Shown here in pieces: positions 3,506-36,910 of a stretch of DNA of 64,000 bases. Numbering within the stretch: the stretch's first letter is position 1; every line of letters begins with the position of its first letter. The translations under genes and the position numbers were made by a program. Below the pieces are notes generated by a model. It had not been told where the DNA came from. It saw only the letters and a program-made list of their open reading frames with translations, and did no database searches. The stretch lies in NCBI RefSeq assembly GCF_907164915.1, contig NC_061867.1:33167751-33231750 (forward strand), given 5' to 3'. The DNA comes from Impatiens glandulifera. Its lineage: Eukaryota; Streptophyta; Magnoliopsida; Ericales; Balsaminaceae.

Positions 3506-3506
3506 A

Positions 3507-5629: not shown

Positions 5630-6156
5630 TGTTGGGTCAAATTATTTTGACTAAGGGTCAAAGTACTTTGACTAATGGAATTTTGATGATGAGTTTGTAT
5701 AAAACATAAACTAATTCGTATAATTGTTTTTGGTGCAGGTGTATCGAAAACATGTTATATTATACTAAGTCTAAATGAGGTTCATTAGACTGATTGGCCA
5801 TTAGATGCATATAGTTAGACGTACAGTCTAACAAACGTAGTTAGACGTGCAGTCTAACAGATACGTAGTTAGACGTGCAGTCTAACAGACGTAGTTAGAT
5901 GTGCAATCTAATAGACGTAGTTAGACGTGCAGTCTAACAGATACGTAGTTAGACGTGTAGTCTAACAAATGTAGTTAGACGTGCAGTCTAACAGATACGT
6001 AGTTAGACGTGAAGTCTAACAGATACGTAGTTAGATGTGCAATCTAACAGATACGTAGTTAGACGTGTAGTCTAACAGATATGTAGATAGACGTGTAGTC
6101 TAACAGATACGTAATTAGACGTGCAGTCTAACAGTTACGTAGTTAGACGTGCAGTC
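5630..6156 (+). repeat. Element C LTR, left part with 13-unit palindromic minisatellite
   Basis: After about 180 bp of unique LTR sequence, 5814-6156 holds 13 units of 24-28 bp built around GTTAGACGTGCAGTCTAAC. Each unit is a 7-bp inverted repeat with a 5-base loop, joined by AGATACGTA-like or AGACGTA spacers. The last unit is cut by B after GCAGTC. The same array resumes at 31688. There is no coding potential; short frames across it are repeat artefacts. Confidence 0.92.
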
Positions 6157-7365
6157 TGTTAGGATCGGGATCGCCCTTGTAAGACCGGGGTTCCGATTTT
6201 GGGGGTGACCACTTACAACAACACAACACGCTCTGATTGGTGATAGTCCGGTTAGAGACTAAAATCGTTTCTTAACACCACGCAAGCTGTCACAGACTCT
6301 TGAACTGGGTTCAAGGGCGGAAATGTCTATTTCAGCTTGAAGCAACACACAAGACTTGATTTTGATGAGATTTATAAGGAATCGGTTAGAGAGGATAGAT
6401 AGACCGGTTTGATTAATAAAGGAAATTATGTTTCGGTTTGGTTTGAAATGAGTGATAGTTCGGTTTGGAGTAAGTGAGCCGGAAATACAGAAAATGACAC
6501 GAGACAAGATTTTTATGGATGTTCGGAGCAAACCCTCCTACGTTACCCCTTTTTCTCAGATTATGAGAAAGATTTCTACTAACTTTAAATGTTACAACAC
6601 TCACACAATGCCGGACGAGCCTTAATCGCTACTCGCCGGTTACACCACTTCACTCTGATGTAATACAAATGATTCAATACAACAACAATGCTTTCAATAA
6701 TTGAGACTGCTATTTAGGATCGCGCATGAGATTTCTTTTCTCTCTCTTAAGATTTTTCGAACCGTATTAAATGAAGACCCTTCGTCTTCCTTTTATATTG
6801 AATAATGTCCCAACGGTCATTTTCTTCTCTCTCCGTAGGATTGGCCATTCTGAAACCACGCCGGTGTAGAGATGTTGCGTGCACGTTCCATCTTTTTAAA
6901 TCTTGGCAACCCTGCGTGCACCGGTCAGGCTTTGATGACGTGAGCGGTTTGCAGTTTTTGACACATGGCAAACATGCACGTTCCGGCTGCCTAATTCAGA
7001 TCTTGCTTCGGATCTTGGATAATCAGATCATCATTATTTTTATATCATGCTTCTGATCCAGATCTTATCTTCTTGTATTTTCCTAAGAAGTATCTATCTC
7101 GTCATATTACGTCATCTTATATTTCGAAGTTTCCGGTTGATCTTTTCGTAATATGATTCGGCTGAGATTGAGAGCTTTTATTGCTAGCCGGTCCGGTTGA
7201 GATGTTGAAACCGGTTCCTTTTGATCATGGCTTGATCATTTGGAGCCGGATTACTTTGGTGTGTTCTCCATCCGGTTTATGCGACTTGATCTGTTCCTAC
7301 ACATGAAAGTTGAAATTAATTAAGTTCTCCGGCCGGTTAAAATTAACCTACTTAATTTTTTAACA
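6157..7365 (-). repeat. Element B 3' LTR
   Basis: The 1,209-bp LTR matches 30480-31687 over its full length. On the - strand it holds a TATA box (TATAAAA, 6797-6791) and then a hairpin with 7-bp arms and 5-base loop (TTTCTCA/TGAGAAA, 6552-6570). The block GGGGTAACGTAGGAGGG ... CATCCATAAA (about 6548-6510) follows, shared with E and C. It ends CCCGATCCTAACA. The TATA position places the transcription start about 70% of the way from the distal end. Confidence 0.93.
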
Positions 7366-7580
7366 ATTTTTCCCTTTTTGATTATTTAGAATAAATATTC
7401 AAAAATTGTAGTGTGTAGGCGGTTTTAAAATTAACCTACTTAATTTTTTCTAACAATTTCTCCCTTTTTGATTATTTAGAATAAATATTCAAAACTTGGA
7501 ATGTGTGACCAGTTTTTGAGAGAACTTAATTTTGGCCGATTTTGAAAAAAATATGTTTATCAATTAATTTCTCCCCTTTT
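7366..7580 (-). other. Element B repeated polypurine tracts and duplicated LTR edge
   Basis: Three PPT-like motifs read on the - strand: AAAAGGGGAGAAATT (about 7580-7566), AAAAAGGGAGAAATT (about 7470-7456) and AAAAAGGGAAAAATT (about 7380-7366). Between the last two, 90 bp (7366-7455) repeat the LTR edge (CTAACA), the PPT and the adjoining AATATTTATTCTAAATAATC. The internal/LTR junction is thus tandemly duplicated. Repeated PPTs are a described trait of Sireviruses. Confidence 0.8.
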
Positions 7581-7914
7581 GATACTTTTCAATGAAAAGT
7601 TTCAAAATAAGCTAATTTTCAAAAATGCGAATTATAATTTAAGTTTGGGATCTTTCGAAAATAACTAAGTTCATAAACCGAGATAATTTAAAAACGATGG
7701 ATATTTTAGACGATAAGTAAAGTAAATAAGTTCATAAAGTATAAATTAAAGAAATAAGCTAGGGGTCGGATGGTCCTCCCTTTTCCTTTTCTTTCTGCCT
7801 TGCCTCCTCCTCTTTCCATTCTCTCTCTCTTCTGTCCGCATCCATGCACCAGCCGTCTAGGAGACTTGTTCTTCCGGGCCTTCGTGGGTTGAATCGAAAG
7901 AGACCGTCTGCTGG

Positions 7915-10725
7915 TCAGGGTGGTCGAGATAGTGGAGCAATTAACGGTCCTTGACTTGGCGATGCAACTGATGATGAGGCAGCGGATTTCTTCTTCCTCG
8001 GGTGGAGGTGTTCAGTATCTTCTTCTTCATCAAGAGGTTCTTCAAGCTGACCAACCGGTTGAGAACCTTCAATGCCGCTTTGTTCGACCTGTTTTAACGG
8101 ACTCGATATTTGTTTTCTTTTAACCCTCTTCCTTGTTACCATTGTGTACTGGACTTGAGTTGGCGTGGTTTCCGGTTGTGCGGCTTTTTCTTCCTCATCA
8201 AATTTCTTGGATAACTCGTGATCCTTGTCTTCCGTTTCCTTTCTCAACCGTTCCATGTCTTCCTCTTCGGCTTGGATTCTCAAAGCTGTTTTGGCATCCA
8301 TTCGAATTTGTTCTTGATTTTTAGCCGCTTGCGTCTTAGTCAACTCCTCAATCTAAGTTGCCATTACTTGTATCATCTCCAGAAGCGGGGCAGTTTCCAT
8401 TTCAACTAACTTTTCAACCATTGTCTTGATCGATGCTTGGACCGCTTCAATTAGTTCGGCTTGGATGGAAGAAATTCTAGCTTATGTGACCGTGTTAAAT
8501 TCGTTAAATGAGGAAGCGACGGTATCGGTAATGATCTCCTTTATGTGCTCGAGTCCTAGATTCTGATCAGCGTGAATTGGAGATTTCGCCCGTTTATTCT
8601 CGTTTTCATTTTCTTGCGGCTGAGGTCCCTCTTGCCCGTCCTTTGCCGGGTTGGAAATTTCACCAATTTCAAAGATTGGTTTACTTTGAAAATCTTCGAG
8701 ATGTAGAAAAAGAGGTTTGCATCTTTCTCTCCAATCTGCCTCTAGCCGGTTGATGTTGTTGATGTTGTTGATGATGTCTTCTCGTACTTTTTGGAACCGC
8801 TTAACCATTTTCAGTTCCTTCTGGTTTAGTTCTTCTCCATCCGTATTCATCAAGGCTTCGGTTACTGCTTTCAACTTAGCGTTTTCGTCGATCAGCTCCG
8901 TTTTGACATAGACTGCTTGGATAATTTCAGTGCCTGCCAGATCGAGAGCCTCCTGCTCTAATCGTAAAAGCTCCGTCCAGTATTTGTTTCCTATGAGGTT
9001 GGAGATCATGTGGGAGAGCCTGGTTTCACTTATGAGTCTGACCCACAAGTGGAATGGGCTGGCAATTCCTTCGGCTTCCTCATTCATATCACCAATGAAT
9101 TTTTGGAACATAGCTTCTTCTTCTTCTTCCGAAATTGGAACTTTAGCGTCTGGTGTGATTTCAGTTTGACTGGGACCGATTAAGTTTCTTTGCGAATCAC
9201 TTCCTCCTTGTACCGGAGGATTTTCGACCAGTACCTGTTTTCCCTTTGAAACCTGAGATGGACCTTCAGGTGTGATGGATGGATTGGATGGCCCATCTTG
9301 GGCCGGTCTAGGGTTGGATCCGGTTGGAATAGCTTTGTCCCCAACTGAGCCGGATGCCTGCCTTTCGTCATTGACTCCCTTCCGCACCGAAGGGATAATA
9401 GTTTCAGAGTTGGCCGCCTCTTCGGCCGGGTGGATTGAGGTCTGACCGGTTGCTTCAACCCGATCAGAATCCTTAAGTGTACTTGTCGCATCGTCTTCAA
9501 TAGTACGATTGACATCCTAAACCACGTTCTCTATTGCCTCCGAGGTTCTCAGCCCAATATCGTCGATTACATCGTTGACATTTTTGGAAGGAGACTTAGA
9601 TTGTTTGGAGTGAGTACTAACCTCTTTAACCGGAGTTTCCTTTAATTTAGACTGTACGACGTGGCTCCCCGAAGATTCGGTTTGCCTTGATGGAACCGGT
9701 CCGGCTGAGTTGGTCTCTTTTTCCGGACGAGGAGAAGAATGAATTGATATCGGACGAACTACGTTTATTGGTTTTGGATGTATCAGCGGATCAGATCGCT
9801 TAGGGAATTTTCCTAAGGATAAAGTTTTCTCGGAATCTTGGGGTTGGTTTGCCGGTTTCTTACCGGTTTTCATCGCTGAGATTTTCACTCTTCCCTTTTT
9901 CTGTGGGACCTCGGTTTGTTTAGCCTTTCCTTTCGGATCGGCTTCTTTGGAACCTTCGCCAACCGGAGCAGTCGGTTTAGTTTCTTTTGATACCTTGGCC
10001 CTTGTAGCTCTCGGCTTGGCCGTTTTAACAGTCTTGGTGCTCATGTTGTCAGCATTTAATATTTTAGAGGGAGAGAGCGGTGTACCTTCACCGATTTCGA
10101 TGTGTAGAAAACGTAGAATCTTTCCGATCGGTATGGCATAAGCTTGTACCCGACCATTTGTTTTGGCGACCACCTCGCATAGTTGCTCGAATAGAACACA
10201 TCCCCAGTCGATCTTGTCACCGCGGACAATTGCCATCATCATCTCTAGCTTTAGTTTAGTCATGTTGTCGAAATTACCTCCTTTTCCTTGAAAAGACTTG
10301 GAGATAATGTCCAGCAACCATCTGAATTCCAGCTTAAGCTTGTTCTTCCAGCTAGAATGAGTTACCAGATCCGCTTCATCATTTGAAATTGCCAACCGGA
10401 CTACTTCAGAGTCAGCTTCTGATAGTCGTGTTCGGAAATCTCTTCCAGTGTTGGGCAAGCCGAGAGCTTCCGAAAATACATCTTCAGTTATATCGAAAGC
10501 CTTGTCGCACACGGTGGTGGAGATGGTTCTCTTCGTCAGAATCGCCGTGTTGAAGAACTCTTCAACTTCAGTTTGATGAACGACGAACGGACCAGAGAGA
10601 TAGGTCTCTAGCCCAGATTCCTTCAAGGATTGGAGTATTGCTTTGTGTTCGCCCGTCGCATGTTCTTCAATATCATTGAAATCGACCTGCAAGATGTAGT
10701 TGAATGGTGTGTTATCTGATCCCAT
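7915..10725 (-). pseudogene. Element B accessory ORF1 (unrecognised domain plus long charged tail), three in-frame stops
   Basis: From ATG at 10725 one frame runs 937 codons to TGA before 7915, interrupted only by TAG (9519-9517), TAA (about 8481-8479) and TAG (about 8353); no frameshift is needed. Residues 1-230 form a domain shared with ORF2 and ORF3: DFNDI, ESGLETYL, VEEFFNTA, FSEALGLPNTG and IDWGCVLFEQL. Then comes a Lys/Pro/Ser-rich region (AKPRATRAKVSKETKPT), a charged, probably coiled-coil C-terminal part (EEEDMERLRKETEDKDHELS) and basic clusters (TRKRVKRKQ, HPRKKK) that may be nuclear signals. There is no signal peptide or membrane segment. I do not know its function; it resembles from memory uncharacterised proteins predicted in Gesneriaceae. 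It is the last gene before the 3' LTR. Confidence 0.75.
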
Positions 10726-10834
10726 GATGAATTATTTTGATGAAGAAGATGAAGATCGTGAGGAGATATGAATGTAGAAATCTTTAGAAGTTTTTAAAGA
10801 GAGAAAGAGTGATTGAATAATGAGAGGTTTTGGA

Positions 10835-10983
10835 TTTATATAGGTGGGCGGTTTTTGACGATTAAGAAAACGAACCGTCACTTCATTCATGTTTTTGGCG
10901 CCAAATTTCCCTCCAAAAGTTACTGCAGTAATTGTGGGGAATTAATATGGTCGGTAAAATTGGGCGGTAAACTGTGGGCGGTA
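10835..10983 (-). promoter_or_regulatory. Putative promoter of accessory ORF1
   Basis: TATATAAA (10842-10835) lies 110 bp upstream of the ORF1 ATG. It sits in the block AACCGCCCACCTATATAAA, whose form AACC(G)CC-N-CTATATAAA recurs before ORF2 and ORF3. Upstream, the motif ACCGCCCA occurs three times (10852-10845, 10968-10961, 10982-10975). The leader to the ATG is pyrimidine-rich (CTCTTTCTCTC, CATCTTCTTCATC), as in plant 5' UTRs. No transcription evidence is available here. Confidence 0.55.
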
Positions 10984-11243
10984 GGTTTGAAGTTTAAGAT
11001 GTGTTTTTGAGATTTATTTCCTTAACCAGAAATTTTGGTTAACCGGAAGATTTTGACGTACGATTGAGTTCTGATGAGAGATGAAGTTGTGTTTGAAATT
11101 TTGTCAAATCGGAAGTGAATTTGTGTAGAAAACCGGAAGAATGAAATATGAAAATTTTATAAATTAATTCGGAAGAGACAGTTACATAGATAGTTATCTG
11201 GTCGAACAACAAAATGACCAAAATAACAAGAAACTATATAAAT

Positions 11244-12002
11244 TTAAGGAAAGAAAAACCAGTTTCCTTCTCTCATTCTGTCTACCCATTCTTCCACAGT
11301 GTTGCCAGTCCGGTTTTCAATTCTTCTTATCCAGCTTTTCATCATGTGATTGGTCACGGTGTTGGTCGGTCCTACCGGAACACCCGGTCCGAGGTTGGAT
11401 AAGTTTGCACGCATGTATCAGCTTATTTGAGGAGCAAAGCCGATTCTTCCCCTTGGAGCTTGGACGAGCTTCTTACGGTTGTTAAAAAGGTATGAGGCCC
11501 AGTTTATGGGCAGAGGTGTGAGGATTGAGATCATGAGGTCGAATACCTCCCGGGAATAGTTTTGATTTGCCATTCGACCCAGAATGGACCGCTGGACCAA
11601 GTCTTGAAGGACTTGGTAGTGGGGTGCGAGTTCATCTTTCGGACCGCAATCTTCCACCGGATCGATAGAGCCGGAGAAGATGAAGGAGTAGTCATCTTTT
11701 GCTGGGAAGTTGGGTGTTGGAAAATCCGAAAATCCTTCGGATGGAAGATGGAAAATTTTGGCGAATGACTCCTCGGTGAGTCGATGTAATGTTCCGTCAA
11801 TGATGGTGTTGATGCTACCATCGTTTCTCACGTATCCGTTATTGAAAAATTCATACACCTCCTCTTCGAGGATGGTGTTTGATCCTTCAAGAAATCTCTG
11901 CAGACCGGATTCGACTAGAGGTTCAAAGATAGCTTCTTCGAATCTAGAGTTAAACATATCGTCAAAGTCGACAATGACGGTGTTTCGGAGTTCGACATTC
12001 AT
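11244..12002 (-). pseudogene. Element B accessory ORF2, paralogue of ORF1, one in-frame stop
   Basis: The start is taken at ATG 12002 (MNVELRNTVIVDFDD) rather than the upstream ATG at 12050, because it aligns with the starts of ORF1 and ORF3. The 195 residues to TGA (11420-11418) include DFDDMF, ESGLQRFL, VYEFFNNG, FAKIFHLPSEG, INWASYLFNN and GRIGFAPQIS, each matching ORF1 and ORF3 positions. In the same frame, after TGA, another 56 codons are open (ending EGNWFFFP, TAA 11246-11244). The original protein was therefore about 252 residues and TGA probably replaced TGG. It lacks the long charged tail of ORF1. No signal peptide, no membrane segment; function unknown. Confidence 0.7.
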
Positions 12003-12109
12003 CTTTGAAAGGTAGATTGAGAGTCGGATGAATAAGGTTTGAATATTCAAGCTATAGAGAGAGAAAGGGATTTCTGAATATTGTGATTTGTTTGAGAAGC
12101 GGTCATGTC

Positions 12110-12117
12110 TTTATATA
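12110..12117 (-). promoter_or_regulatory. Putative TATA box of accessory ORF2
   Basis: TATATAAA (12117-12110) lies 108 bp upstream of the chosen ATG, within AACCGCCTGCACTATATAAA, the same arrangement as before ORF1 (110 bp). The leader is again CT-rich (CCCTTTCTCTCTCTATAG). Confidence 0.55.
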
Positions 12118-12239
12118 GTGCAGGCGGTTAAGAAGCATTTAATGAGAATATTTTGAAAAATCAGACCTTTCATGTATGGTCATAAATGTTTGACGCCTTT
12201 TCAAGGGAATAATTTGCTTGGGAAGGATAATTAGTAGGC

Positions 12240-12842
12240 TGTCTAGCACAAAAACCGCTCAGCTGGGGAGCGTAGCCGGTTTTGTTTGAGGTGATCATCT
12301 TCTTCAGGTTGTTGAAGATGATCCAGGACTAGTTGACCGGTGTCCCAACCGTTATGGCAATTATCATTTCAAACATTCGCTGGGTATAATAGTAGCTCTT
12401 TTCTCTACCCAGAACGGTTTTTTCCCAGAATCTCGCTTAGAATCTGGTACTTGTGAGTGAGTTGGCTTTTAGCACCTCAAGGCTTAACCGGGATGTTAGA
12501 GCTTGAAAATAAATGACATATTTCTTCCATGGTCACCGGAGAATAAGTGAGATCGGTTACCCCTTCAGTGGGTAAACCGCAATATTCAGCGAAATCCGTC
12601 TCGCTGAATAGGAATGATTGACTGTAGACTTGTGCCACAATGATTTCCCGGTGCGCCTCTTTGGCTATTTCGAAAAACTCATCGACTACCAAGCAGTCGA
12701 TGATGAATCTATTCTCTAAGAACTTTATTAGTCTGGTTCTTTCAAGGGCTAGAAACATTTCCTTGATGCCATGATCTTCATTCTGGTAGATGGAGTTGAA
12801 GTCGGCTAGCAGGATCTTTTTAGAGAAAGGTGAAGAGTTCAT
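12240..12842 (-). pseudogene. Element B accessory ORF3, paralogue, frameshifted
   Basis: From ATG 12842 (MNSSPFSKKILLADFNSIY) the frame runs to TAA near 12477, with VDEFFEIA and FAEYCGLPTEG at the positions of VYEFFNNG and FAKIFHLPSEG in ORF2. In a different frame downstream (about 12420-12245), TVLGREKSYYYTQRMFEM, then VN, a TAG where Trp is expected, SWIIFNNL and TGYAPQLSG match the ORF2 C-terminal part. It is therefore a third copy of the same domain, broken by a frameshift around 12,450 and by Trp-to-stop. It is the first of the three after pol; element D sits about 230 bp upstream of its TATA box. Confidence 0.65.
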
Positions 12843-12918
12843 GTTCTTGTGATAAGTTTGACTCAAATGTTTTTGTGAATAGTGATCTTGTGAGATGTTT
12901 TTGAAGAGTGAAGGGTTG

Positions 12919-12926
12919 TTTATATA
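12919..12926 (-). promoter_or_regulatory. Putative TATA box of accessory ORF3
   Basis: TATATAAA (12926-12919) lies 77 bp upstream of the ATG at 12842. It sits in AACCCCTGGCTATATAAA, which keeps the AACC-CC-CTATATAAA pattern of the other two copies. Confidence 0.5.
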
Positions 12927-13151
12927 GCCAGGGGTTCGGCTAGGTTAGTAGGATAAGCGTGCTTAGTGATGTCATCGGTTAATTAATAGGAGTTAACTTG
13001 TTTAGGTATACAATGTTTAGTTTCAATGCAATAGTAATGATTACTAAAAATTTTCATGATGAAAATAAATATATGGGCAATATGTTAGTCTTCCTCTCTT
13101 GATGATGGAAACGTGTCGTCATCTCGATTGAGGCAGATTGTTTTATAATTC

Positions 13152-14978
13152 TGTACGCGTTTAAAAACGTTTGCCCCAAAAATGATTTTCTTGACTTTTA
13201 AGAAATAAATATAACATATAGAAATCTCTTAAACAAAATTGAAATAAAATCAAATTGGTGAATTGTTTAAAAACCAGTTTGTGACCAAAGAGTCGCCACC
13301 TAAATTTTTATAAAACTAGGAAAATAAATTATTTGGCATGTAAAACAATAACGCCTTTGAAAAAGAAATTCTTTAAAGGTTCGGTGCTTGGTTACACGTG
13401 AAAATGGGCTTTTGGCGCTATGTCTCACATGCCTGTTAAAAAACAGTCTCTACTTTAACAATTTTGGCCCTTAAAAAAATATTATTATACTTTACATTTT
13501 AGACATTTTGGATCCTACCATACTAAATCTTAATACTAAGGATTATAAAATAAATAAAATAAAATAAAAATAAAAATAAAAAAATAACCTTAGATCTAGT
13601 TACTTAAAAGAATAAAAAAATCAACTATACAAAATAAGGCAAATTTTACATTTTTTTTATTTTGGTAGTGTTTTTGAAAACTTTTTCTGCTTTTTTATTT
13701 ATTTATTTACATGTTATTTCTATTCTACTTATTTACATGATTAAGGTATATAAATAAAACCTACACGCCTATCAAAACAATAAATTTAAAGGAAATCATT
13801 CATAATATAAAGTACAAAGAAAATAAAAATCAAATGAAAGTAAAATTCAAATTCAAATTTAAATAAACAAAAGAAAGGAAAAAGAGCTTACAAATGGTTA
13901 CTCTTTATATCCTTGCAAAAAAATGAAAACCCTAATCAAGAGACTTGTGACTCAACAAATCTAGTTGGTGCTCTTGCTTAGGTTTTTTAGAAAAGTAGGG
14001 TCTAATTCGGCAGTCTAATGTGTAAAGAGAGAGAAGAAGGTGAAGATTGAAGGTCGAAAGTTGAAGTTCTTGCTAGGGTGTTAAGAGGGGTATTTATAGG
14101 CCAAGCTATGAAACCCTATGGCCCAAAGGCCCATTTAACAAACTTGACCGTTGGAAAGAAAACTATTTTAAACATTTACAAATGTTTAAAATAATGGAGC
14201 AATCTCCACTTGACATGTCACTAAATCAAGTTTTCAATCCAATGGGATTTAATCTTTATTTAATAAATGATGTAATACTTGGTCATTTTAATTTTTAATT
14301 AAAAATGACCAAGCCTTCATGCTTCTCCAACGGCTGAATTATTCTTCCTTTGACAACTTCTTCCTTTATTTTAGCAATCTCTTTTTTCCTTCTTTGACCT
14401 AGAATGCTTCTCATTATTGTGTAGACACCGTTATCTTTTTATTTTTGCACGTTATCCCTTTACACACTCTTCATCCTACAAAAAAAAGATTTTGTTAAAA
14501 ATAAAAATAAACAATTTTATTTTTAATTATTCCTATTTATAAGGAACAATTCTAATTAAATAAATAAAATGCAAACTAACTTATTCAAGAAATCAAATTT
14601 CAAAGTTTAATCTAACTAATCTAACAAACAAAATATAACTAACGAAATTTTATAAAAACGCTAATATATATTTTGTAAAATATATATTTTTTTTTATTTT
14701 TAATTTTTTTTATAAATACCCAAGGTAATTAATTAAATAAAACCTTGAATATTCTAAGTATAATAACTTCTCTAAGTGTTGTAACATAGACAAATTACTA
14801 CCTTAACTTTATTAAGAATCCAAAATCAATTATTTTCAAAAACTCAATTGTTCTAAAAATAATCGTCTTTAATATAAATCGTGCAATGAGTCCGTGAATG
14901 AATTCGAGAAAATTTTATAGACTCAGATTTATGAAAAGTATAAACTATAAAATTAGGTGTGAAAAATGAGTGTCTACA
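13152..14978 (-). repeat. Element D 3' LTR
   Basis: The LTR is 1,827 bp. On the - strand the U3 holds two strong hairpins: CTTGGTCATTTTTAATT paired around 14314-14278, and TATTTTAAACATTT paired with AAATGTTTAAAATA (about 14195-14163). A TATA box (TATAAATA, 14098-14091) follows within CCTATAAATACCCC. The downstream part contains GGTGGCGACTCTTTGG, common in this lineage. All these are repeated in the 5' LTR. Confidence 0.95.
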
Positions 14979-14995
14979 GAATGCCCCTCTTGGAC
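14979..14995 (-). other. Element D polypurine tract
   Basis: Directly before the 3' LTR the - strand reads CCAAGAGGGGCATTC and then TGTAGACAC. The purine core AAGAGGGG, next to the TGTAGACAC start, is the usual plus-strand primer arrangement of Tat/Ogre elements. Confidence 0.8.
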
Positions 14996-15349
14996 AAAAT
15001 TTGTAGAAAACACTTGGTTTAGAAAAATGCATGTCCAAGCTTGAAAATAGGCACTGCATTTTGAAAACACCCAATTTATAGTTTATTTTTGGCTTCCTTG
15101 AATGAAAAGAGAACAAACCTGACGAATCTCTCGGGAGACCCGTGTAATTTACCCTTCATTCTTCAAAGTCGGTTTATCATCCACTCGTTGACGATTCACA
15201 TTTGTTTAGAATATGCATCGCTCCTGGTTTATCGATCATGTAGATCGAGCCTGGTGGTTTCGACCATATTTCTACACACCTCGCCTAGTCTTTGGATTGT
15301 ACATGAGTACACATCTTGACTTAGTTTGCTGATTGTATATATATATTTT

Positions 15350-16395
15350 TTTTAGCGAAATACTATTTAATCACAATTCTACTTAGTGATTATATAGAAT
15401 CTAAGTATCGCTGGTCAATTTAGCGAAATACTATTTAATCACAATTCTGTTTAGTGATTATATAGATTTAAGTATCGCTGGTCAGTTTAGCGAATACTAT
15501 TTAATCACAATTCTGCTTAGTGATTATATAGATTTAAGTGCCGCTGGTCAGTTTAGCAAAACACTTTTTAATCACAATTCTGCTTAGTGATTATATAGAA
15601 TCTAAGTATCGCTGGTCAATTTAGCGAAATACTATTTAATCACAATTCTGCTTAGTGATTATATAGATTTAAGTATTGCTGGTCAGTTTAGCGAATACTA
15701 TTTAATCACAATTCTGCTTAGTGATTATATAGATTTAAGTGCCGCTGGTCAGTTTAGCGAAACACTTTTTAATCACAATTCTGCTTAGTGATTATATGGA
15801 TTTGAGTATCGCTGGTCAGTTTAGCGAAATACTATTTAATCACAATTCTACTTAGTGATTATATAGATTTGAGTGCCGCTGGTCAGTTTAGCGAAACACT
15901 TTTTAATCACAATTCTGCTTAGTGATTATATGGATTTGAGTATCGCTGGTCAGTTTAGCGAAATACTATTTAATCACAATTATGCTTAGTGATTATATAG
16001 AATCTAAGTATCGCTGGTCAATTTAGCGAAATACTATTTAATCACAATTCTGCTTAGTGATTATATAGATTTAAGTATTGCTGGTCAGTTTAGCGAATAC
16101 TATTTAATCACAATTCTGCTTAGTGATTATATGGATTTGAGTATCGCTGGTCAGTTTAGCGAAATACTATTTAATCACAATTCTACTTAGTGATTATATA
16201 GATTTAAGTGCCGCTGGTCAGTTTAGCGAAACACTTTTTAATCACAATTCTGCTTAGTGATTATATGGATTTGAGTATCGCTGGTCAGTTTAGCGAAATA
16301 CTATTTAATCACAATTCTACTTAGTGATTATATAAATTTAAGTATTGCTGGTCAGTTTAGCGAATACTATTTAATCACAATTCTGCTTAGTGATT
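15350..16395 (-). repeat. Element D 3' tandem array 1 (about 67 bp x 16)
   Basis: Sixteen copies of a unit averaging about 67 bp, each with TTTAATCACAATTCTGCTTAG, GTGATTATATAGATTTAAG and CGCTGGTCAGTTTAGCGAA. Variants (AGCGAAATACTATTT, AGCGAATACTATTT, AGCGAAACACTTTTT) recur in partly regular order, hinting at a three-unit higher-order repeat. Noncoding. Tandem repeats 3' of pol are known in Ogre/Tat elements. The 16396-17750 stretch after it is noncoding 3' region in which I recognise no gene. Confidence 0.93.
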
Positions 16396-17464
16396 TAAGT
16401 TCGAAGTTAGACTTCCTTAATTTTCAAAACACTAGCGTCTTCTTCAACGGTTTTGAAATACTTTCAAGAATCGGTTCCATACTTTCTTCCTTAGAGTGTG
16501 TCGAGAGGAAACCACATGTAATCGATGTTCTTCGAGATTCATGCTGTCACTTTTGGGGACTTGTCTTTCGCCAAGACGTTTTGCCCTGAGTTTTTCGAGG
16601 GATTTGTTCGCTCGAATGCTTAATCTTTCAACCACGCGTCATGAGGTTGAGCCTCGCTTCTCAAATTCGGAGGTCAGTGTGCTTAAGATTCTATGGCCTT
16701 GGGCTCTTTTATACTCAGGGTATATTTAATAGAATCGGTACATTCTTGTTCTTGCATTGGCAATTTAGACAAGAGTCTAGATGAACAACAAATGGTGATT
16801 TCAATATCTCAACCTCTACGAGTATTTTTCTATTTTATTCGGCCTCTTTTCTTTATGACCGGGGTGTATCTGATAGATTCAAACACTTTGTTCTTGCTTA
16901 GCAATTAGATAGAATCTAAATGAACAACATTATTGTATTTCATATCTCAACCAACACAGTCTTTGTTTAATTGATTTTACTTTTCTTGAGGTCTTAGATC
17001 TTTGGCACTTGACCTCCAATTGAGACGAGACATCGCCTTTGTTGATGACATGGTTCCGAGTTTGGGCATTCATCTTTTTATGAGCTCTCTCTTAAACATC
17101 AGTAGTTTAAGCTTTCGTCTAGGCTCGAGGTAGATCCATTTGCGAAGCGCTTTACTCAGATTCCACAAGTTACATTAGTTCGTCAAGAGACATCCATTGG
17201 GGAAAAACGTATTTTCCCGCATCCCTACTTATTTCTTGCACTCGCTCATCAGTTCGCTTGGCATTAGAAAAAAAATCAGGGGTCTATCTTTTCTTTTTTT
17301 TATCTTCCACAAATACCCCTAGTTTCGACACAAGAGGTTTGATTGTTTTGGATAGATTTGTGATCCCAATTTCTCGTTGGCTTTAACTCTTTGGGGATCT
17401 TTCAATCATTTCATTTTCATAAAATGCCCCTAGTGTCGATACAGGGTTTGATTTTTGAAAATGT

Positions 17465-18235
17465 TTAGGACCGGGCTCATACAAGCTGCCTACGTATCCC
17501 ATAGCTAGGGGAATTCAGGTCCAACGTAGTTCCATGCACATGCTTGTGAAAAATGTTTGTGTATGTGTGAATGTTTTGAAAATCTTTTGAGATCATAAGT
17601 CGAAGAGAAAAATACTTTAGCTTTGGGCATTATATTTTCTCAAGTGGGACTCTGTGAGGATCTTGTAGTCATTTTTATTTTAATAAAAATGCCCCTAGTA
17701 TTGACTAAGAGTTTTTGGTTTAGGAGTCAACTTAGAGTGTGATTAACTCCCTTTTTAATGTATATGCAATGAATGTATGCGATGTGTTGTTAAATGAAAT
17801 GTCTATCAACTTCTTTCGATAATTGACAGTGGTGACCGCACCCTGGATGGGTTGCCTACGTACTCTCGAGAGAGATCAGGTCTCACGTAGTTCACAGCTT
17901 ATGAAGTTATGAACTTTGATGTATATGTAATGAATGCATTTAATGCGAAATGTCTATCAATTTCTGTCGATAATTGATAGTGGTGACCGCACCCTGGATG
18001 GGTTGCCTACGTACTCTCAAGAGAGATCAGGTCTGACGTAGTTCACAACTTGTGAAGTTATGAACTTTGATGTATGTGTAATGAATGCATGTAATGTGAA
18101 ATGTCTATCAATTTCGGTCGATAATTGATAGTGGTGACCGCACCCTAGATGAGTTGCCTACGAACTCTCGAGAGAGATCAGGTCTAACGTAGTTCACAAC
18201 TTGTGAAGTTATGAACTTTGATGTATAGGATTCAA
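17465..18235 (-). repeat. Element D 3' tandem array 2 (151 bp x 3 plus a diverged copy)
   Basis: Three copies with 151-bp spacing (anchor CGATAATTGA at 17817, 17968 and 18119). Each contains GTGGTGACCGCACCCTGGAT, GTTGCCTACGTACTCTC, GAGAGAGATCAGGTCT and ACGTAGTTCAC. A diverged copy lies near 17469-17535 (GCTGCCTACGTATCCCATAG, GGAATTCAGGTCCAACGTAG). The array ends about 10 bp before the integrase stop codon. The TACGTAGGCA module (- strand) is common in Tat-lineage 3' regions. Confidence 0.9.
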
Positions 18236-18245
18236 CACGCATGCT

Positions 18246-19178
18246 TTAGATGAAGTATCTTTTGAGCATGTCGACATTGAAGGGTGCTGAGAGTTCTTCT
18301 CCATCCAAGGTGGTCAATCTCGTGGCGCCACCTGAAAAGACCTTCTTGACGAGGTAGGGTCCTTCCCATGGTGTTTGGAATTTCCCTATGGGGTCTAGTA
18401 TCCGTAAGTTCTTCTTTAGAACTAAATCGCCTTCTTGAATGTTCCTAGGTTTCACCTTCTTGTTGAAAGCTCTGGTCATTCTTCTTTGGTATGCTTGCGT
18501 GTGACATAATGCGTCTAACCTCTTATCTTCCATAAGGGCTAGCTGATTGTACCGTGACTTACACCAATCTTCCTCCACTACTTGTGTCTCGAGTAAAACT
18601 CTTAAAGTAGGAACTTCGATTTCGATAGGTTGCACTGCATCCATTCCGTAGACCAATGCAAATGGCGTTTCTCCCGTTGACGTTCGAATGGTTGTTCTAT
18701 ATCCCCATAAGGCGTATGGAAGCTTCTCGTGCCAATCCTTGTATGTCTGAGTCATCTTCTTGATGATAGTGATGATGTTCTTGTTCGCTGCCTCTACAGC
18801 GCCGTTCGTTTGAGGACGATAAGGTGAGGATTTGTGGTGTTCAATCATGTATTCATCTAGTACTTTGAGTACTTCTCCCCGGAAGTGTCCACCATTGTCT
18901 GAGATCAAAGCATGAGGAACTCCATAACGTGCAATGATGTTGTTTCGTATGAACTTGGCAACATGTGATGACTTGAGAACCTCATATGATTGAGCTTCGA
19001 CCCACTTGGTGAAATAATCGATAACCACCAGGATGAATTCGTGTCTGTTTGAAGCGTGAGGATAAATTTTCCCGATGATATCTATTCCCCATGTCGAGAA
19101 TGGCCATGGTGAAGTCATGTTGTAAAGTAGAAATGCTGGGTGTGCTTCAAGTTCGCGTAAACTTGACATTGATGACAC
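18246..19178 (-). pseudogene. Element D integrase
   Basis: An open 310-codon frame covers the catalytic core and C-terminal part of a gypsy integrase. The DDE residues are visible: WGIDIIG (first Asp), ISDNGGHF (second Asp) and YRPQTNGAVEAANKN (Glu). The C-terminal GPY-type module reads TPWEGPYLVKKVF; there is no chromodomain, as in Tat elements. The ATG at 19178 is not a true start: the frame overlaps the upstream one by 64 bp, so a frameshift near 19,115-19,178 breaks the polyprotein between the HHCC finger and the core. Confidence 0.9.
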
Positions 19179-20155
19179 TTCTTAACATATTCTACACATT
19201 CTTGTTCCATATTCTGCCAATAATAGCCAAAGCGAAAGATCTTCTTAGCGAGTGCTGATCCGTTCATGTGTGGGCCACATGTTCCTGCATGTACTTCCTC
19301 CATGATCTGTGATGCTTGAGGTTGGTCGATGCATAACATGTTCTGACCGTCAAAGGAGCGTCGATATAGCTTTCTTGCGAGTAGCACGTAGTTGGTTGCG
19401 TATTGGCGTAGAGCTCTCCTCTCTTTCTTTTGGAAGTGTGAAGGATACTCTCCATGCTCAACGTACTTCTGTAGAGGTTCGAACCAAGGTTTGGGCGCCA
19501 CTTCGGTGTTGGCAATCGTCCTCTTCTCGAAGTCTCGTTTCTGTTTCTGACGAATCTTCAAAGGCTTGATTTCGATTCCTTCTGGAATTTGCGTCATGGC
19601 TGCTAACGTCGCCAAAGCGTCTGCGAATCGATTTTGACTTCTCGGAGCATGTGTGAATGTTACATGTTCAAACTTTTCTATTAGAGTCGATAAGTGTTGA
19701 TGGTAGGGTTTGAGGTTGTCTCCTTTGACTTGCCATTCACCATTAGCTTGTGAAATGACTAAGTTTGAGTCTCCTACTACTTCTAGACGTCTCGCTCCTT
19801 TTTCATGAGCAATCTTCAAGCCAGAGATGCATGCTTCATACTCTGCCTCATTGTTAGTCACTTGATATTCGAGCTTGACTGAGATTGGGTTGTATGTTCC
19901 CATAGGATCGATGAGTAGTATCCCGATGCCATAACCTTGTTTTCCTGAAGCTCCATCGAATAATAGCTTCCATGTTGTAGGGTTAATAGTCATCACTTCG
20001 TCGTCTGGGAATGCTAACTCCTCTTCGTCTTCAACTTCGATTGGTTGGTCTGCGAGAAAATCTGCTACAACGCTCCCCTTGATAGATTTCTGAATTGTGT
20101 ATACGATGTCGTACTCTGATATCATCATCATCCACTTAGCTAACCTCGGAGACAA
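19115..20155 (-). pseudogene. Element D second (archaeal-type) RNase H and integrase zinc finger
   Basis: An open 346-codon frame. About residues 58-195 form an RNase H-like domain: WKLLFDGASGKQGYGIGI with the first catalytic Asp, NNEAEYEACISGLKIA with Glu, EVVGDSNLVISQ with Asp and SQNRFADALATLA with the last Asp. This is the extra, archaeal-type RNase H that marks Tat/Ogre gypsy elements. The C-terminal part holds the HHCC region ending YVKKCHQCQVYANLKH. The frame is cut from the RT part by a stop at about 20,163. Confidence 0.9.
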
Positions 20156-20164
20156 AAGCGTTTT

Positions 20165-21540
20165 CTAGAATAAATGACGAATTGGATCGAGTCTTGATAC
20201 TAGCTTGACTGTGTGGGCTTTCATGTAATGCCTTAGCCTCTTAGTGACCCAAGCTAGGGCCCAACACACCTTTTCTACTGGCGAGTAATTAAGTTCGTAG
20301 CCTATCATGCGCTTGCTTATGTAGTAGACTGCGACTTCCATCTTTTCCTCGTTTTCTTGGGCTAGTAGACTACCCATTGCGTTTTCCGTGACTGTTAAGT
20401 ATAGGATTAGCGGTATGCCTGGTCTTGGCGGCATCAGAATGGGAGGATTCTTGAGGTATCCCTTTATCTTCTCGAATGCGTTCTGACAAGCGTCATCCCA
20501 AACGAATCTTTCATTTTCCTTAAAAGTTTAAACAAAGGATCACATGTCATAGTCAACTTGTTTATGAATCGACTTATATACTAGATCTTTCCTAGAAAGC
20601 CTCGCACTTCTTTCTCGCTTTGTGGAGGTGGCATTGTCGTGATCGCTTCTATCTTGCTCGGATCAACCTCAATTCCTCTTTGCGTGATTAAGAAGCCTAA
20701 CATCTTTCCTGCTATAACTCCAAATGTGCACTTCTTTGGGTTGAGCCTAAGTTGGAACTTCCTGATACGTTGTAAGATTTTGTCAAGATTTTGGATGTGC
20801 CCTTATCGATCTTTTGATTTGACAATCATATCGTCGACATAGACTTCTACCTCCTTGTGGATCATATCGTGAAGAATCATTGTGGCAGCTCGTTGATACG
20901 TTGCTCCTACATTCTTCAGCTCGATAGGCATGACTCGATAACAAAATGTTCTGACTTCTGTGATGAACGTTGTCTTCTCCTTGTCTTCAGGAGCCATCAG
21001 TACTTGGTTGTAACCTGAGAATCCGTCCATGAATGATAGGAGATGATGGCCTGCTGCATGATCCACTAGCACGTCGATGTGTGGTAGTGGAAAGTTGTCA
21101 TTAGGGCTTGCTTTGTTGAGATCCTGATAGTCTACACACACTCGGATCTTTCCACTTTCTTCGCGACTAGGACTACATTGACGATCCATTCTGGGTAATC
21201 TACCACTTCAAGGAATCCTACGTTGAGCTGTTTCTGAACTTCCTCCTTGATCTTGTACTCGATGTCTGCCTTCATTCTTCGGAGCTTCTGCTTCACCGGT
21301 TTCGCGTCTTCATAAAGTGGTATGCGGTGTTGGATGATTTCTGGATCAATGCCTGACATATCTTTATAGGACCATGCAAAAACATCTTTGTTTGCTTTTA
21401 AAAGTTTAGTCAGATTTTCACGTTCTAAATCATTTAAACTTTTTCCGATTAAAACAATTTGAGGATCTTCTTCTGTGTTAAGGTTTATTTCAATTGTTTC
21501 TTCTGCAACAAGTTCCTTAAGGCCTTCAATAATGACATCA
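20165..21540 (-). pseudogene. Element D reverse transcriptase and first RNase H, broken
   Basis: From 21540 the - strand reads the pre-RT segment (VFAWSYKDMSGIDPEI), the fingers (KQLNVGFLEVVDYPEW, the VVLVAKK region), then VCVDYQDLNKASPNDNFPLP, the palm LSFMDGFSGYNQ and the active site EVYVDDMIVKSKD (about 20840-20806). A stop follows at 20803, then LNPKKCTFGV and, after another stop near 20,580 and a frame change, the first RNase H (20434-20165: AQENEEKMEVAVYYISKR, YSPVEKVCWALAW). There is a frame change between 21190 and 21130. Not translatable as one protein. Confidence 0.9.
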
Positions 21541-21900
21541 TTAAACCGTCAAATTCACTACGAGGTGGAGCAGTAGTGGCACTCCTTGCTTGTGATGATT
21601 GTTGACTTTATTTAGGAGAAATGAGTTCTCTTGATGAGCATTTTGTCCTTGAGTTTGACGTGCTTGCATGACTCTTATTTTGAATAGACCTTTCGCATTT
21701 TTCCAACCGTCCATGAATGCCCTGCTTACCTTTTCACTTTCTTCTCGCAAGCTTTTCAGATTAAGGGGTTCGATTGTCGCATAAGTTTCGACTTCTGTTG
21801 TGAGGTCTTCAAGTTGTTGCCCCAATTGTATCAGTATATCACGAAGATCGTCTATCTTTAGATGAACTGACTCATTGAACCTTCTTGGTGGATTAGTCAT
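21541..21900 (-). pseudogene. Element D gag N-terminal remnant
   Basis: A 119-codon frame from ATG 21900 (MTNPPRRFNESVHLKIDDLR), predicted largely helical and charged. It lies where gag begins but stops at the point where pre-RT sequence starts in another frame. No capsid core, zinc knuckle or protease motif (DTGA/DSGA) lies between it and RT, so a deletion removed most of gag and all of protease. Assignment as gag rests on position only. Confidence 0.5.
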
Positions 21901-23110
21901 TGTAAATTATGGTGAATATGAGTATGTTGTATTCAAGAGAACAAAGTCATTTCGAACCCCTTTATCAAGTAAAACAAGCAATGCGTTGCTCGTATGCACA
22001 TAATCCCTAACACACCATAGACGCTCAATTTACCCATTCACATTGTAAAACATGTAGAAAAGGATGAGTAAAATAAGAATGAGTTATTTTATTAAAATCC
22101 TAAGTGTCATGGATAAAATCACAAACTCAAGTCATAAAATAAAATAAGAAAAGAAAGCAAGCACCCCTCATCCTTTCCTTATAATGTCGCTCATGTATCT
22201 TCATAAGGAGATTTACATTTCAAGCATAAATAAATCTAGTTTAAGTCTTCTAATCTTCAAGTCTTTTCATCTTTCTTGATCGTTTTTGCGCCTCATGCGT
22301 CTCTCTTGATCGTCTTTGTGTTTCACGCGTCTTTCTTGATTAGATCTTGCGCTTAGAATCTGAGTAGTAAAGACACAAAGAAAGAAAACTAGTTACATTA
22401 GATTCTTCTTTTAGCTTTTCTAGGTTTCCTCGATTTTACTCCTTTAAAACTATTAAGTTTAGCCTCAAAATTTCGAAATTGTTCACATGTTTCATGACAT
22501 TTTAAAACTTTGAATGGATAAACTGAGCGCCTAGAAATATCTATATGCATACATGTATTTATCATATATAGTAGTCAAGTAAAGGGCTTCGTGACGTGGC
22601 TTTGTTGCTCGACAGGACGAGACGAGGCAACGGCTTGGTAGAATTGGCTTTTTGGATTTTTGTTCTAAAGTTGGAAATGGCTTAAGAGAGAGTTGTTCCA
22701 CCGACAAGGATACTATCCCAAAAGAGATCTCTCGATGTAAGGGGAGCTCTCAATTGGACATCCCCCTCACCTCTATTTCAAAATCCCTCACTTTCAATTG
22801 TAGGGGATATTTGAAAAGAAGAGAGGGTTAATCCGGGTTTTTTTCTGTTGTTTTTCTCAACTCTCAAATCACACAAAAGCCTTCAAGGCATAGGGTTGAG
22901 GGTGTCATTCACATTGACTACCCTTAGCACATAAAATATAGATGTATAGGCTTCGTCCAATGACGTATACCTTATACTATCTTCACATCAGAGCCCCAGA
23001 GCTCATGCACATTAAGAAAACAAATTATTTTTTCCCGGGGAATAACATTAAAGTGTAAAATATATTTTTTAAATTGGCCAAAATTGTTTTTTCAAGTTAA
23101 GCATCAAAAT
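21901..23110 (-). other. Element D leader (5' untranslated region)
   Basis: About 1.2 kb between the PBS and the first ATG on the - strand. No domain recognised. It contains a short direct repeat on the + strand (TTGATCGT near CATGCGTCTCTC and TTTCACGCGTCTT, about 22270-22340). Long leaders before gag are normal in this lineage. Confidence 0.6.
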
Positions 23111-23129
23111 GTCCCCAGCAGAGTCGCCA
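23111..23129 (-). other. Element D primer-binding site
   Basis: Six bases inside the 5' LTR end the - strand reads TGGCGACTCTGCTGGGGAC. This is the PBS seen in many Ogre/Tat elements, usually assigned to an arginine tRNA; the tRNA identity was not checked here. Confidence 0.85.
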
Positions 23130-23135
23130 GAAAAC

Positions 23136-24960
23136 TGTACGCGTTTAAAAACGTTTGCCCCAAAAATGATTTTCTTGACTTTTAAGAAATAAATATAACA
23201 TATAGAAATCTCTTAAACAAAATTGAAATAAAATCAAATTGGTGAATTGTTTAAAAACCAGTTTGTGACCAAAGAGTCGCCACCTAAATTTTTATAAAAC
23301 TAGGAAAATAAATTATTTGGCATGTAAAACAATAACGCCTTTGAAAAAGAAATTCTTTAAAGGTTCGGTGCTTGGTTACACGTGAAAAAGGGCTTTTGGC
23401 GCTATGTCTCACATGCCTGTTAAAAAACAGTCTCTACTTTAACAATTTTGGCCCTTAAAAAAATATTATTATACTTTACATTTTAGACATTTTGGATCCT
23501 ACCATACTAAATCTTAATACTAAGGATTATAAAATAAATAAAATAAAATAAAAATAAAAATAAAAAAATAACCTTAGATCTAGTTACTTAAAAGAATAAA
23601 AAAATCAACTATACAAAATAAGGCAAATTTTACATTTTTTTTATTTTGGTAGTGTTTTTGAAAACTTTTTCTGCTTTTTTATTTATTTATTTACATGTTA
23701 TTTCTATTCTACTTATTTACATGATTAAGGTATATAAATAAAACCTACACGCCTATCAAAACAATAAATTTAAAGGAAATCATTCATAATATAAAGTACA
23801 AAGAAAATAAAAATCAAATGAAAGTAAAATTCAAATTCAAATTTAAATAAACAAAAGAAAGGAAAAAGAGCTTACAAATGGTTACTCTTTATATCCTTGC
23901 AAAAAAATGAAAACCCTAATCAAGAGACTTGTGACTCAACAAATCTAGTTGGTGCTCTTGCTTAGGTTTTTTAGAAAAGTAGGGTCTAATTCGGCAGTCT
24001 AATGTGTAAAGAGAGAGAAGAAGGTGAAGATTGAAGGTCGAAAGTTGAAGTTCTTGCTAGGGTGTTAAGAGGGGTATTTATAGGCCAAGCTATGAAACCC
24101 TATGGCCCAAAGGCCCATTTAACAAACTTGACCGTTGGAAAGAAAAATATTTTAAACATTTACAAATGTTTAAAATAATGGAGCAATCTCCATTTGACAT
24201 GTCACTAAATCAAGTTTTCAATCCAATGGGATTTAATCTTTATTTAATAAATGATGTAATACTTGGTCATTTTAATTTTTAATTAAAAATGACCAAGCCT
24301 TCATGCTTCTCCAACGGCTGAATTATTCTTCCTTTGACAACTTCTTCCTTTATTTTAGCAATCTCTTTTTTCCTTCTTTGACCTAGGATGCTTTTCATTA
24401 TTGTGTAGACACCGTTATCTTTTTATTTTTGCACGTTATCCCTTTACACACCCTTCATCCTACAAAAAAAGATTTTGTTAAAAACAAAAATAAACAATTT
24501 TATTTTTAATTATTCCTATTTATAAGGAACAATTCTAATTAAATAAATAAAATGCAAACTAACTTATTCAAGAAATCAAATTTCAAAGTTTAATCTAACT
24601 AATCTAACAAACAAAATATAACTAACGAAATTTTATAAAAACGCTAATATATATTTTGTAAAATATATTTTTTTTTTATTTTTAATTTTTTTTATAAATA
24701 CCCAAGGTAATTAATTAAATAAAACCTTGAATATTCTAAGTATAATAACTTCTCTAAGTGTTGTAACATAGACAAATTACTACCTTAACTTTATTAAGAA
24801 TCCAAAATCAATTATTTTCAAAAACTCAATTGTTCTAAAAATAATCGTCTTTAATATAAATCGTGCAATGAGTCCGTGAATGAATTCGAGAAAATTTTAT
24901 AGACTCAGATTTATGAAAAGTATAAACTATAAAATTAGGTGTGAAAAATGAGTGTCTACA
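23136..24960 (-). repeat. Element D 5' LTR
   Basis: The 1,825-bp LTR is nearly identical to 13152-14978. It has the same two U3 hairpins and a TATA box (TATAAATA, 24082-24075), so it would drive transcription leftward through D. The adjoining 24961-24965 AATTC is the target-site duplicate. Confidence 0.95.
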
Positions 24961-24965
24961 AATTC

Positions 24966-25370
24966 ATAGATTTAATTTTCAAGGTGTGCATGAAAACGCG
25001 GTTAGCCGTCCCAAGTTAGTCAGAGAAGTTCAATTTACCGAAACCATGATGCATTTTATTGGTTGGTTTTCCATGACCAGTTTTATAGAGATAGCTTATT
25101 CCGGTGTGAAGAGATGTCGAATCAGATCGACATTTGTTCAGCTTTGGATTAAACTATCTGTTTTGCCAAGTCATTTGAACCGCTCAATATGTATACATGT
25201 GGTTTGATATTATGAATTTGTCATGCATAACCGGAGACTTCCTTCCGGTTAGCATCCTTGAAGATTTAATGTCCTATTACGGTACGGTTTGAGAAGCGAG
25301 AGCTTCTCCCTGAACATATACCCCGGTTTTTCATGATAATGTATTTTGAGAGCAAGTAGTGATGATTATG
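24966..25370 (-). other. Element B spacer downstream of pol
   Basis: Noncoding on the - strand between the RNase H stop codon (about 25371) and the D insertion; it continues at 13151-12930 up to the ORF3 promoter. Without D it was about 630 bp. Nothing recognised in it. The + strand open frame crossing 24941-25207 runs across the D boundary and is spurious. Confidence 0.6.
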
Positions 25371-26205
25371 GCATAAGTTGTTTGCTATCAGTAAGTCCTA
25401 AAATGTTTCTGAAATAAGAGAACTTAGCTTCCTGTAGCGGTTTGGTGAAGATATCAACCACTTACTGTTCAGTTGAGACATACTCCAGTCGGATGTGTTT
25501 CTGTTGAACATGCTCCCGGATGAAATGATGTCTTATATCAATGTGCTTTGTTCTTGAGTGTAACACCGGATTATATGTGATCGCTATTGCACTGGTGTTG
25601 TCACAAAATATTGGCGATTCTTCAGCAGTCACGCCAAAATCCCTTAGTTGTTGTTGGATCCAGAGGAGTTGTGCACAGCATCTTCCGGCTTCTAGGTACT
25701 CTGCATCTGCGGTTGATGTTGCAACTGATGTTTGCTTTTTACTATTCTATGAAACTAGCCGATCTCCAAGAAATTGACAAGTCCCACTTGTACTCTTTCG
25801 ATCGATTTTGCAGCCTGCATAGTCTGCGGCTGAGTAGCTTATGAGATTGAAGCTTGAATCTTTTGGGTACCAAAGTCCCACGTCTTGAGTTCCTTTCAAA
25901 TACTTTAAGATCCTTTTAGCAGCGGTATAATGTGATTGCTTTGGGTTGGCTTGATATCTCCCGCATACTCCGACTGCGAATAAGATATCTGGTCGGCTGG
26001 CTGTTAGGTAAAGTAATTAACCAATGATTTCTCGATATGTTGTGATGTCGACTGCTTGACCGTCCTCATCTTTGTCTAGTTTCATAGAGGAGCTCATCGG
26101 TGTAGCCGCCTCAACACATGTGTCCATTCCAAATTTCTTCAACAGTTCGGTTGTGTACTTTGGTTGCCTTATAAATGTTCCGGTTTCGATCTACTTAACC
26201 TGAAG
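25371..26205 (-). pseudogene. Element B RNase H
   Basis: Reading the - strand through stops gives LLYLTASRPDILFAVGVC, AAKRILKYLKGTQDVGLWY, ISYSAADYAGCKIDRKST, SVATSTADAEYLEAGRC, IFCDNTSAIAITYNPVLHSR and TKHIDIRHHFIREHV, ending DIFTKPLQEAKFSYFRNILG. This is the standard copia RT thumb plus RNase H. The catalytic Asp of SYSDAD has become SYSAAD. Stops occur at expected Ser, Trp and Gln positions. Confidence 0.88.
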
Positions 26206-26950
26206 TCATGGGAAGAAATTTAGTTCTCCCATCATACTCATTTGAAATTTGTCAGTCATCATTTTTGAGAATTTATCACATAATTTTGGATCGGTTGATC
26301 CGAAAATAATGTCATCAACATAAATTTGAACAAGTAATATGTGTTCCTTTTTCTCAAATTTGAAAAGGGTTTTATCGACCGAACCTATTGTAAATTTATG
26401 ATTAAATAAGAATTTGGTTAATGTGTCATAGCAATCTCTTGGAGCCTGTTTCAAACCGTAAAGGGCTTTGTTTAGCCGGTAAACATGATTTACGTGTTCT
26501 GGATTTTTAAAACCTGGAGGTTGATTAACATACACCTCTTCATTTATCTCTCCGTTTAGAAAAACGCTTTTAACGTCCATTTGAAAAACTTTGAAATTTT
26601 TGAAAGCTGCAAATGCTAGAAATATTCTAATGTCCTCAAGTCTTACCAAAGGAGCAAATGATTATTCAAAATCAATGCCTTCTTCCTATTTATAGCCTTG
26701 AGCCACTAGTCGAGCCTTGTTCCTCGTAACTAAACCATCTTCATTGAGTTTATTTCTTAATACCCATCGTGTTCCTATAACCGGTTTGTATTTCGGTCTA
26801 GGGACTAAGTATCAGACTCTATTTCTCTCAAAATCGTTTAATTCCTCTTGCATTTCTAAAATCCAATCAGGATCTAGCAACGCTTCATCCACATTTTTCG
26901 GCTCAATTTGTGATATGAAAGCTGAGTTTTCATAGTGTTCCAAATTTTGT
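26206..26950 (-). pseudogene. Element B reverse transcriptase
   Basis: The section 26649-26206 is open (147 codons): MDVKSVFLNGEINEEVYVNQ, PPGFKNPEHVNHVYRLNKAL, YGLKQAPRDCYDTL and the active site IYVDDIIFGSTDPKLCDKF. Upstream, IGTRWVLRNKLNEDG and ARLVAQGYK appear in the same direction but with stops. YVDDIIFGST is the form typical of Sireviruses. Stops at expected Trp and Gln codons upstream make it nonfunctional. Confidence 0.92.
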
Positions 26951-31687: not shown

Positions 31688-31692
31688 CAGTC

Positions 31693-36907: not shown

Positions 36908-36910
36908 TAT

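Follow-up and report, generated by a model that had tools for sequence, protein, structure and literature searches.

Several plant long terminal repeat (LTR) retrotransposons carry genes in addition to gag and pol. In the maize Ty3/gypsy element Grande, gene23 is found after pol and ahead of the 3′ LTR; it is transcribed from its own promoter (PMC7264820), and its product is nuclear (PMC11963269). Among Ty1/copia elements, the Sireviruses (SIRE) may contain eORF-3′, an extra open reading frame (ORF) located between pol and the 3′ LTR in the sense orientation (PMC6317226), for which transmembrane and coiled-coil domains have been described (PMC3414828). Peterson-Burch and Voytas proposed an internal promoter for Sirevirus post-pol ORFs, but the study that reports their proposal could not identify one with certainty (PMC2829016), and whether such ORFs function at all is questioned (PMC6317226). 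Further, in the Ty3/gypsy element Athila of sunflower, a sense ORF after pol has a partial match to the Pfam domain Transposase_32 and a predicted nuclear signal (PMC11728184), and antisense ORFs of the Retand lineage contain Transposase_28 in 57 of 104 cases (PMC11963269). Here, we analyzed 64,000 nucleotides (the window) of Impatiens glandulifera contig NC_061867.1, positions 33,167,751 to 33,231,750, in which a copia element carries three tandem genes after pol. We favor, with a probability of about 0.55, the reading that this Sirevirus-like Ty1/copia copy has decayed and that its three post-pol paralogues would be RNA polymerase II (Pol II) transcription units of their own, encoding accessory, perhaps nuclear, factors that are not envelopes.

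The locus resembles Grande in having accessory genes in the same post-pol region, with own-promoter sequence predicted here, and a core promoter sequence outside the LTR indeed precedes all three genes. It differs in that Grande, a gypsy element, contains a single gene that is oriented antisense to gag-pol, whereas here three genes lie in the sense orientation in a copia element. SIRE eORF-3′ is usually single, whereas the present genes are three paralogues with a TATA box each and no membrane segment in the pieces scanned. Sunflower Athila likewise has a single such ORF, with no internal promoter mentioned in the available part of that report (PMC11728184), and Transposase_28 had no match in any accessory piece scanned here. 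Own-promoter accessory genes are already known from Grande, but a triplet in sense orientation within a copia element appears to be new; a literature search, outside which most subscription journals lay, returned no title on several own-promoter accessory paralogues in a copia element.

The three genes are on the minus strand between the copia pol and the 3′ LTR, sense to gag-pol, and are listed here with their TATA boxes.

7759..10725, minus strand: gene 1, with an N-terminal Transposase_32-like domain and a long charged extension; ATG at 10725
10835..10842, minus strand: TATATAAA of gene 1, 109 nt before the ATG
11244..12002, minus strand: gene 2, domain only; ATG at 12002, continuing to 11244 past one stop
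12110..12117, minus strand: TATATAAA of gene 2, 107 nt before the ATG
12170..12842, minus strand: gene 3, domain only; ATG at 12842, open to a stop at 12479-12477, the remainder running to 12172-12170
12919..12926, minus strand: TATATAAA of gene 3, 76 nt before the ATG

An initial annotation of the stretch had proposed three homologous minus-strand ORFs after pol in one LTR element, each with a TATA box, and this core of the proposal held. BLASTP aligned genes 1 and 2 at 9e-17 (29% identity over 182 columns), genes 1 and 3 at 9e-10 (31% over 93 columns), and genes 2 and 3 at 4e-4 (25% over 114 columns), with the shared motifs quoted in that annotation falling within the aligned columns. The domain common to all three comprises ∼200 residues, and genes 2 and 3 are little more than this domain; the second half of the gene 3 domain is found past its first stop, at 12424-12257 (tblastn, 1.3e-8). 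Judged from these alignments, the three genes are true paralogues and old ones. The proposal that the gene was duplicated twice fits; because protein identity is only 25-31%, however, the duplications would long predate the insertion of this copy.

The reported extents of the genes had to be revised. Gene 1, previously ended too early, runs in a single frame to 7759, with 988 codons, four internal stops, and no frameshift, and gene 2 runs on past one internal stop to 11244 (252 codons). Gene 3 is damaged most, containing stops and a frameshift. In a simulation of decay since insertion, which used half of the LTR divergence and covered only the first 121 codons of gene 3, 1.8 stops (0-5) were expected in gene 1 and 0.43 (0-2) in gene 2, against 4 and 1 seen. 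The stop counts of genes 1 and 2 are thus compatible with genes that were open at insertion.

The TATA boxes were found essentially where they had been placed, the distances of 110, 108, and 77 nt given earlier each becoming one shorter. Of the 86 ATG-initiated ORFs of at least 60 residues in the window, exactly three have TATATAAA at -150 to -50, and these are genes 1-3 (0 of the other 83). The motif CTATATAAA occurs at five sites in the 64 kb on both strands, and three of the four minus-strand sites are the accessory gene boxes. When the three 200-bp upstream regions were shuffled 4000 times with dinucleotides preserved, the box arose in a single region in 81 shuffles, and no shuffle had it in two or three regions. 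The wider upstream block that had been proposed as shared is partly borne out: leader parts of genes 1 and 3 align with a score matched by only 2 of 500 shuffles, whereas the best local score of genes 2 and 3 was matched by 30 of 500, and that of genes 1 and 2 was weak. In genes 1 and 2, AACCGCC adjoins the box. Because of the ORF count and the shuffle results, we conclude that the boxes are beyond chance and that wider upstream homology is partly supported. Further, pyrimidines make up 0.68 of the gene 1 leader and 0.61 of the gene 2 leader, compared with 0.48 for the whole strand.

The element that carries these genes, and a younger element nested within it, consist of the following parts.

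30480..31687, minus strand: 5′ LTR of the copia element, with TG...CA ends and the target-site duplication GACTG at 31688-31692
29885..30433, minus strand: gag piece (Pfam Retrotran_gag_2, 1.2e-21)
27411..27956, minus strand: integrase piece (Pfam rve, 5.1e-12)
25366..26649, minus strand: reverse transcriptase piece, broken by stops, up to the pol stop at 25368-25366 (RVT_2, 5.2e-42, at 26209-26649)
13152..24960, minus strand: younger Ty3/gypsy element of 11.8 kb between pol and the accessory genes, with target-site duplication GAATT
7366..7600, minus strand: repeated polypurine-tract-like stretches (direct repeats) ahead of the 3′ LTR
6157..7365, minus strand: 3′ LTR of the copia element, with TG...CA ends and GACTG at 6152-6156

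The genes do follow pol, as had been stated, but the gypsy element intervenes, starting 400 bp after the copia pol; its LTRs are 99.45% identical. With it skipped, ∼620 bp separate the pol stop from the first of the accessory TATA boxes. The copia LTRs are identical at 1165 of 1210 columns, and their divergence (K = 0.036) corresponds to about 1.4 to 2.6 million years at the two substitution rates assumed, 1.3e-8 and 7e-9. CpG is not depleted in these LTRs (1.08).

The assignment to the Sireviruses made by the initial annotation stood in part. Sireviruses have the junction CA/ATTGG (or AGTGG)/TATCAGAGC between the 5′ LTR and the primer-binding site, and the junction here, CA/AGTTG/TATCAGAGC, agrees with the G variant at 15 of 16 positions and with the consensus at 14 of 16. 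The AT/TG attachment site at the 3′ LTR is present (...AAAT/TGTTA), as are the long linker and optional sense ORF after pol. In Sireviruses, the octamer AGGGGGAG is further placed at exactly 10 bp upstream of the 3′ LTR, and the linker contains several more copies identical to it, but no exact AGGGGGAG occurs in 7366-13146. The terminal octamer here is AGGGAAAA, which agrees with AGGGGGAG at 5 of 8 positions, and two forms with one mismatch lie within 600 bp; two known Sireviruses deviate from AGGGGGAG, each at one base. We regard the element as Sirevirus-like Ty1/copia; it is likely a Sirevirus, but the absence of the polypurine octamer of the genus in its exact form keeps us from a firm assignment.

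Gene 1, within its first 225 residues, weakly matches Pfam Transposase_32 (PF20167), with E = 3.2e-5 over model positions 17-152 of 177. Protein relatives came from Impatiens glandulifera alone (3 of 3 in one search and 14 of 14 in another, in which the best 8000 candidates were scored and three of the 14 belonged to the query), and the Gesneriaceae relatives mentioned in the initial annotation did not appear, the searches being limited by shared words and length. These relatives retain the extension of gene 1: its piece 8485-9387 matches all 14 (34-60% identity) and its piece 7918-8343 matches 13 (43-64%). The extension includes a basic cluster, which a pattern search found in the window and in 13 of the 14. 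The I. glandulifera gene models of the relatives read through the region that matches gene 1. None of the 14 annotated relatives spans the whole N-terminal domain; coverage of gene 1 extends over residues 56-150 in P0005 and over 138-200 in P0001. Gene 2 matches only P0005 (1.7e-6), and gene 3 matches none of the 14 at E up to 0.01. In P0011, the C-terminal part occurs twice in tandem with 62% identity, reflecting either tandem genes or neighboring copies fused by gene prediction. The search with a profile of the N-terminal domain, which the initial annotation had proposed, found no match among 2291 candidates from the protein database at E ≤ 0.001, much longer proteins being excluded as candidates. 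Similarly, one of eight scans of viral contigs gave 198 pattern matches with no relative among them, and the single match in a PDB sequence search (E = 0.44) is not meaningful.

Taken together, these observations point to the following course of events. The gene unit and its promoter would probably have been duplicated long ago in the element lineage, and because the unit was duplicated together with its promoter, each gene would be separately transcribable. Pol II would likely transcribe each gene separately, so that neither splicing of an LTR transcript nor readthrough would be needed. Less surely, the proteins may be accessory factors rather than envelopes, perhaps nuclear ones, with a Transposase_32-related domain as their core, and they may act on the expression or silencing of their own element. 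Products of internal promoters could be available ahead of LTR transcription or in its absence, as is the case for Tas in foamy viruses, an activator that is made from an internal promoter and required by the LTR (PMC7390438). Foamy viruses differ in being animal retroviruses with this promoter inside env; we claim no sequence kinship with them, and the regulatory role considered here is one that we infer.

Several observations weigh against this reading. First, the Transposase_32 score of gene 1 (24.3 bits) is under the curated cut-off of 45 bits, and genes 2 and 3 have no match to that domain at E up to 10; the gene 1 domain is thus a distant relative of Transposase_32 at most. The nuclear role is one proposed from the basic cluster and by analogy with the precedents. 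Second, upstream similarity of genes 1 and 2 beyond the TATA box was matched by 96 of 500 shuffles, and the pyrimidine fraction of the gene 3 leader (0.53) hardly exceeds that of the strand (0.48). Third, none of the three genes is intact in this copy. Finally, a review has env-like genes driven by the 5′ LTR promoter (PMC7264820), and the end of gene 3 is only 51 nt from the box of gene 2, which leaves little room for a separate transcript end.

This last distance also speaks for the alternative of LTR-driven expression, in which the LTR transcript would serve the accessory genes through splicing or readthrough and the TATA boxes would be remnants or ineffective. Both routes have been reported, splicing for Bagy2 (PMC7264820) and stop-codon suppression for SIRE1 (PMC2829016). 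However, the box has been kept by three separate genes and by no other ORF of the size class counted above, and gene 3 starts ∼850 nt of copia sequence (more than 600 nt) from the pol stop instead of adjoining it. We therefore consider expression from the LTR transcript unlikely, although conceivable.

Somewhat less probable again is that this single element captured, or received as an insertion, a cluster of host genes or some other mobile unit, in which case the triplet would lie outside the element family and do the element no service. All relatives being annotated as plant proteins without context would fit such an origin, but no host source was found for the capture that the initial annotation had proposed. 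Speaking against an independent insertion of the triplet, none of the 24 inverted-repeat pairs in 7366-13149 bounds it (the search did not extend to the 400 bp that separate pol from the gypsy element). Further, CCGG is enriched in the gene region (19 versus 8.2 expected in gene 1) as it is in the copia LTRs (17 and 15 versus 2.1 expected each) and in gag-pol (19 versus 7.0), unlike the rest of the window; the nested gypsy element has 6 versus 10.9 expected. This enrichment recalls the repeated CGG-CCG motif of Sireviruses (PMC2829016). The tails of P0006, P0009, and P0013 also resemble window DNA just past the end of gene 1 (0 of 300 shuffles each), and these alignments, which are short (11-25 residues), are weak evidence that the surroundings of the gene are shared. 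That the gene products are Sirevirus envelope-like (eORF-3′) proteins that have diverged and serve at the surface or in movement is highly improbable, given that there are three genes rather than one, that their domain is Transposase_32-like, and that the membrane segments of an envelope protein, already reported as lacking, were not seen in the six pieces scanned (maximum 19-residue hydropathy 1.10, with no dedicated predictor used and the gaps between gene 1 pieces unscanned).

An extension of the reading of separate Pol II units would be a two-stage programme, in which three paralogous nuclear regulators independent of the LTR come first and LTR activation or de-silencing follows, with roles split between the two domain-only paralogues and the extended one. 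We regard this programme as speculative and, taken whole, improbable. A comparison can be made with VANDAL elements, whose VANC proteins act against the silencing of their own element (PMC5735166), but VANDAL is a DNA transposon and VANC contains DUF1985 and DUF287 domains, neither of which matched the accessory pieces scanned. No VANC-like target motif array was found inside the copia element. The palindrome GTTAGAC-N5-GTCTAAC occurs in 22 exact copies in the window and was considered as such an LTR regulatory array, but it was rejected since all copies are outside the element. They lie within the two stretches (5812-6157 and 31688-33505) of a tandem array that flanks the element, with a ∼28-bp unit and also 75-bp units. 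Because the LTR ends are exact and GACTG is duplicated, the palindromes belong to a tandem array that was hit by the insertion. Six array copies have exactly two arm changes, and dyad symmetry is kept in four of these (6030, 32155, 33413, and 33488).

We also note features of the window apart from the accessory genes. CGG-bearing palindromes near these genes are few. The nested gypsy element contains tandem repeats with a 67-bp unit (15.6 copies, 15351-16395) and a 151-bp unit (2.9 copies, 17796-18227), and two related 33-bp tandem arrays lie ∼9.4 kb apart (50902-51161 and 60446-60771), the first in an open frame with 11-residue repeats. A nucleoside hydrolase gene piece, from a host gene or pseudogene, is present at 44095-44460 (Pfam IU_nuc_hydro, 4.2e-15), and a non-LTR-type reverse transcriptase piece at 56931-57497 (Pfam RVT_1, 6.7e-8). 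Judged from reading frames, further copia-type pieces lie at 2727-5159 and 36542-38159; the one scanned (36545-36907) had no Pfam match at E ≤ 0.001.

Overall, the arrangement points to the possibility that elements of this kind express helper genes apart from their main transcript. With a TATA box retained at each of them, the three paralogues provide a built-in replicate for the question of how Sirevirus post-pol genes are expressed. Further, the Transposase_32-like domain may link the accessory ORF of the Ty3/gypsy element Athila with a Ty1/copia element, and this link, if true, hints at one accessory function common to unrelated plant retrotransposons.

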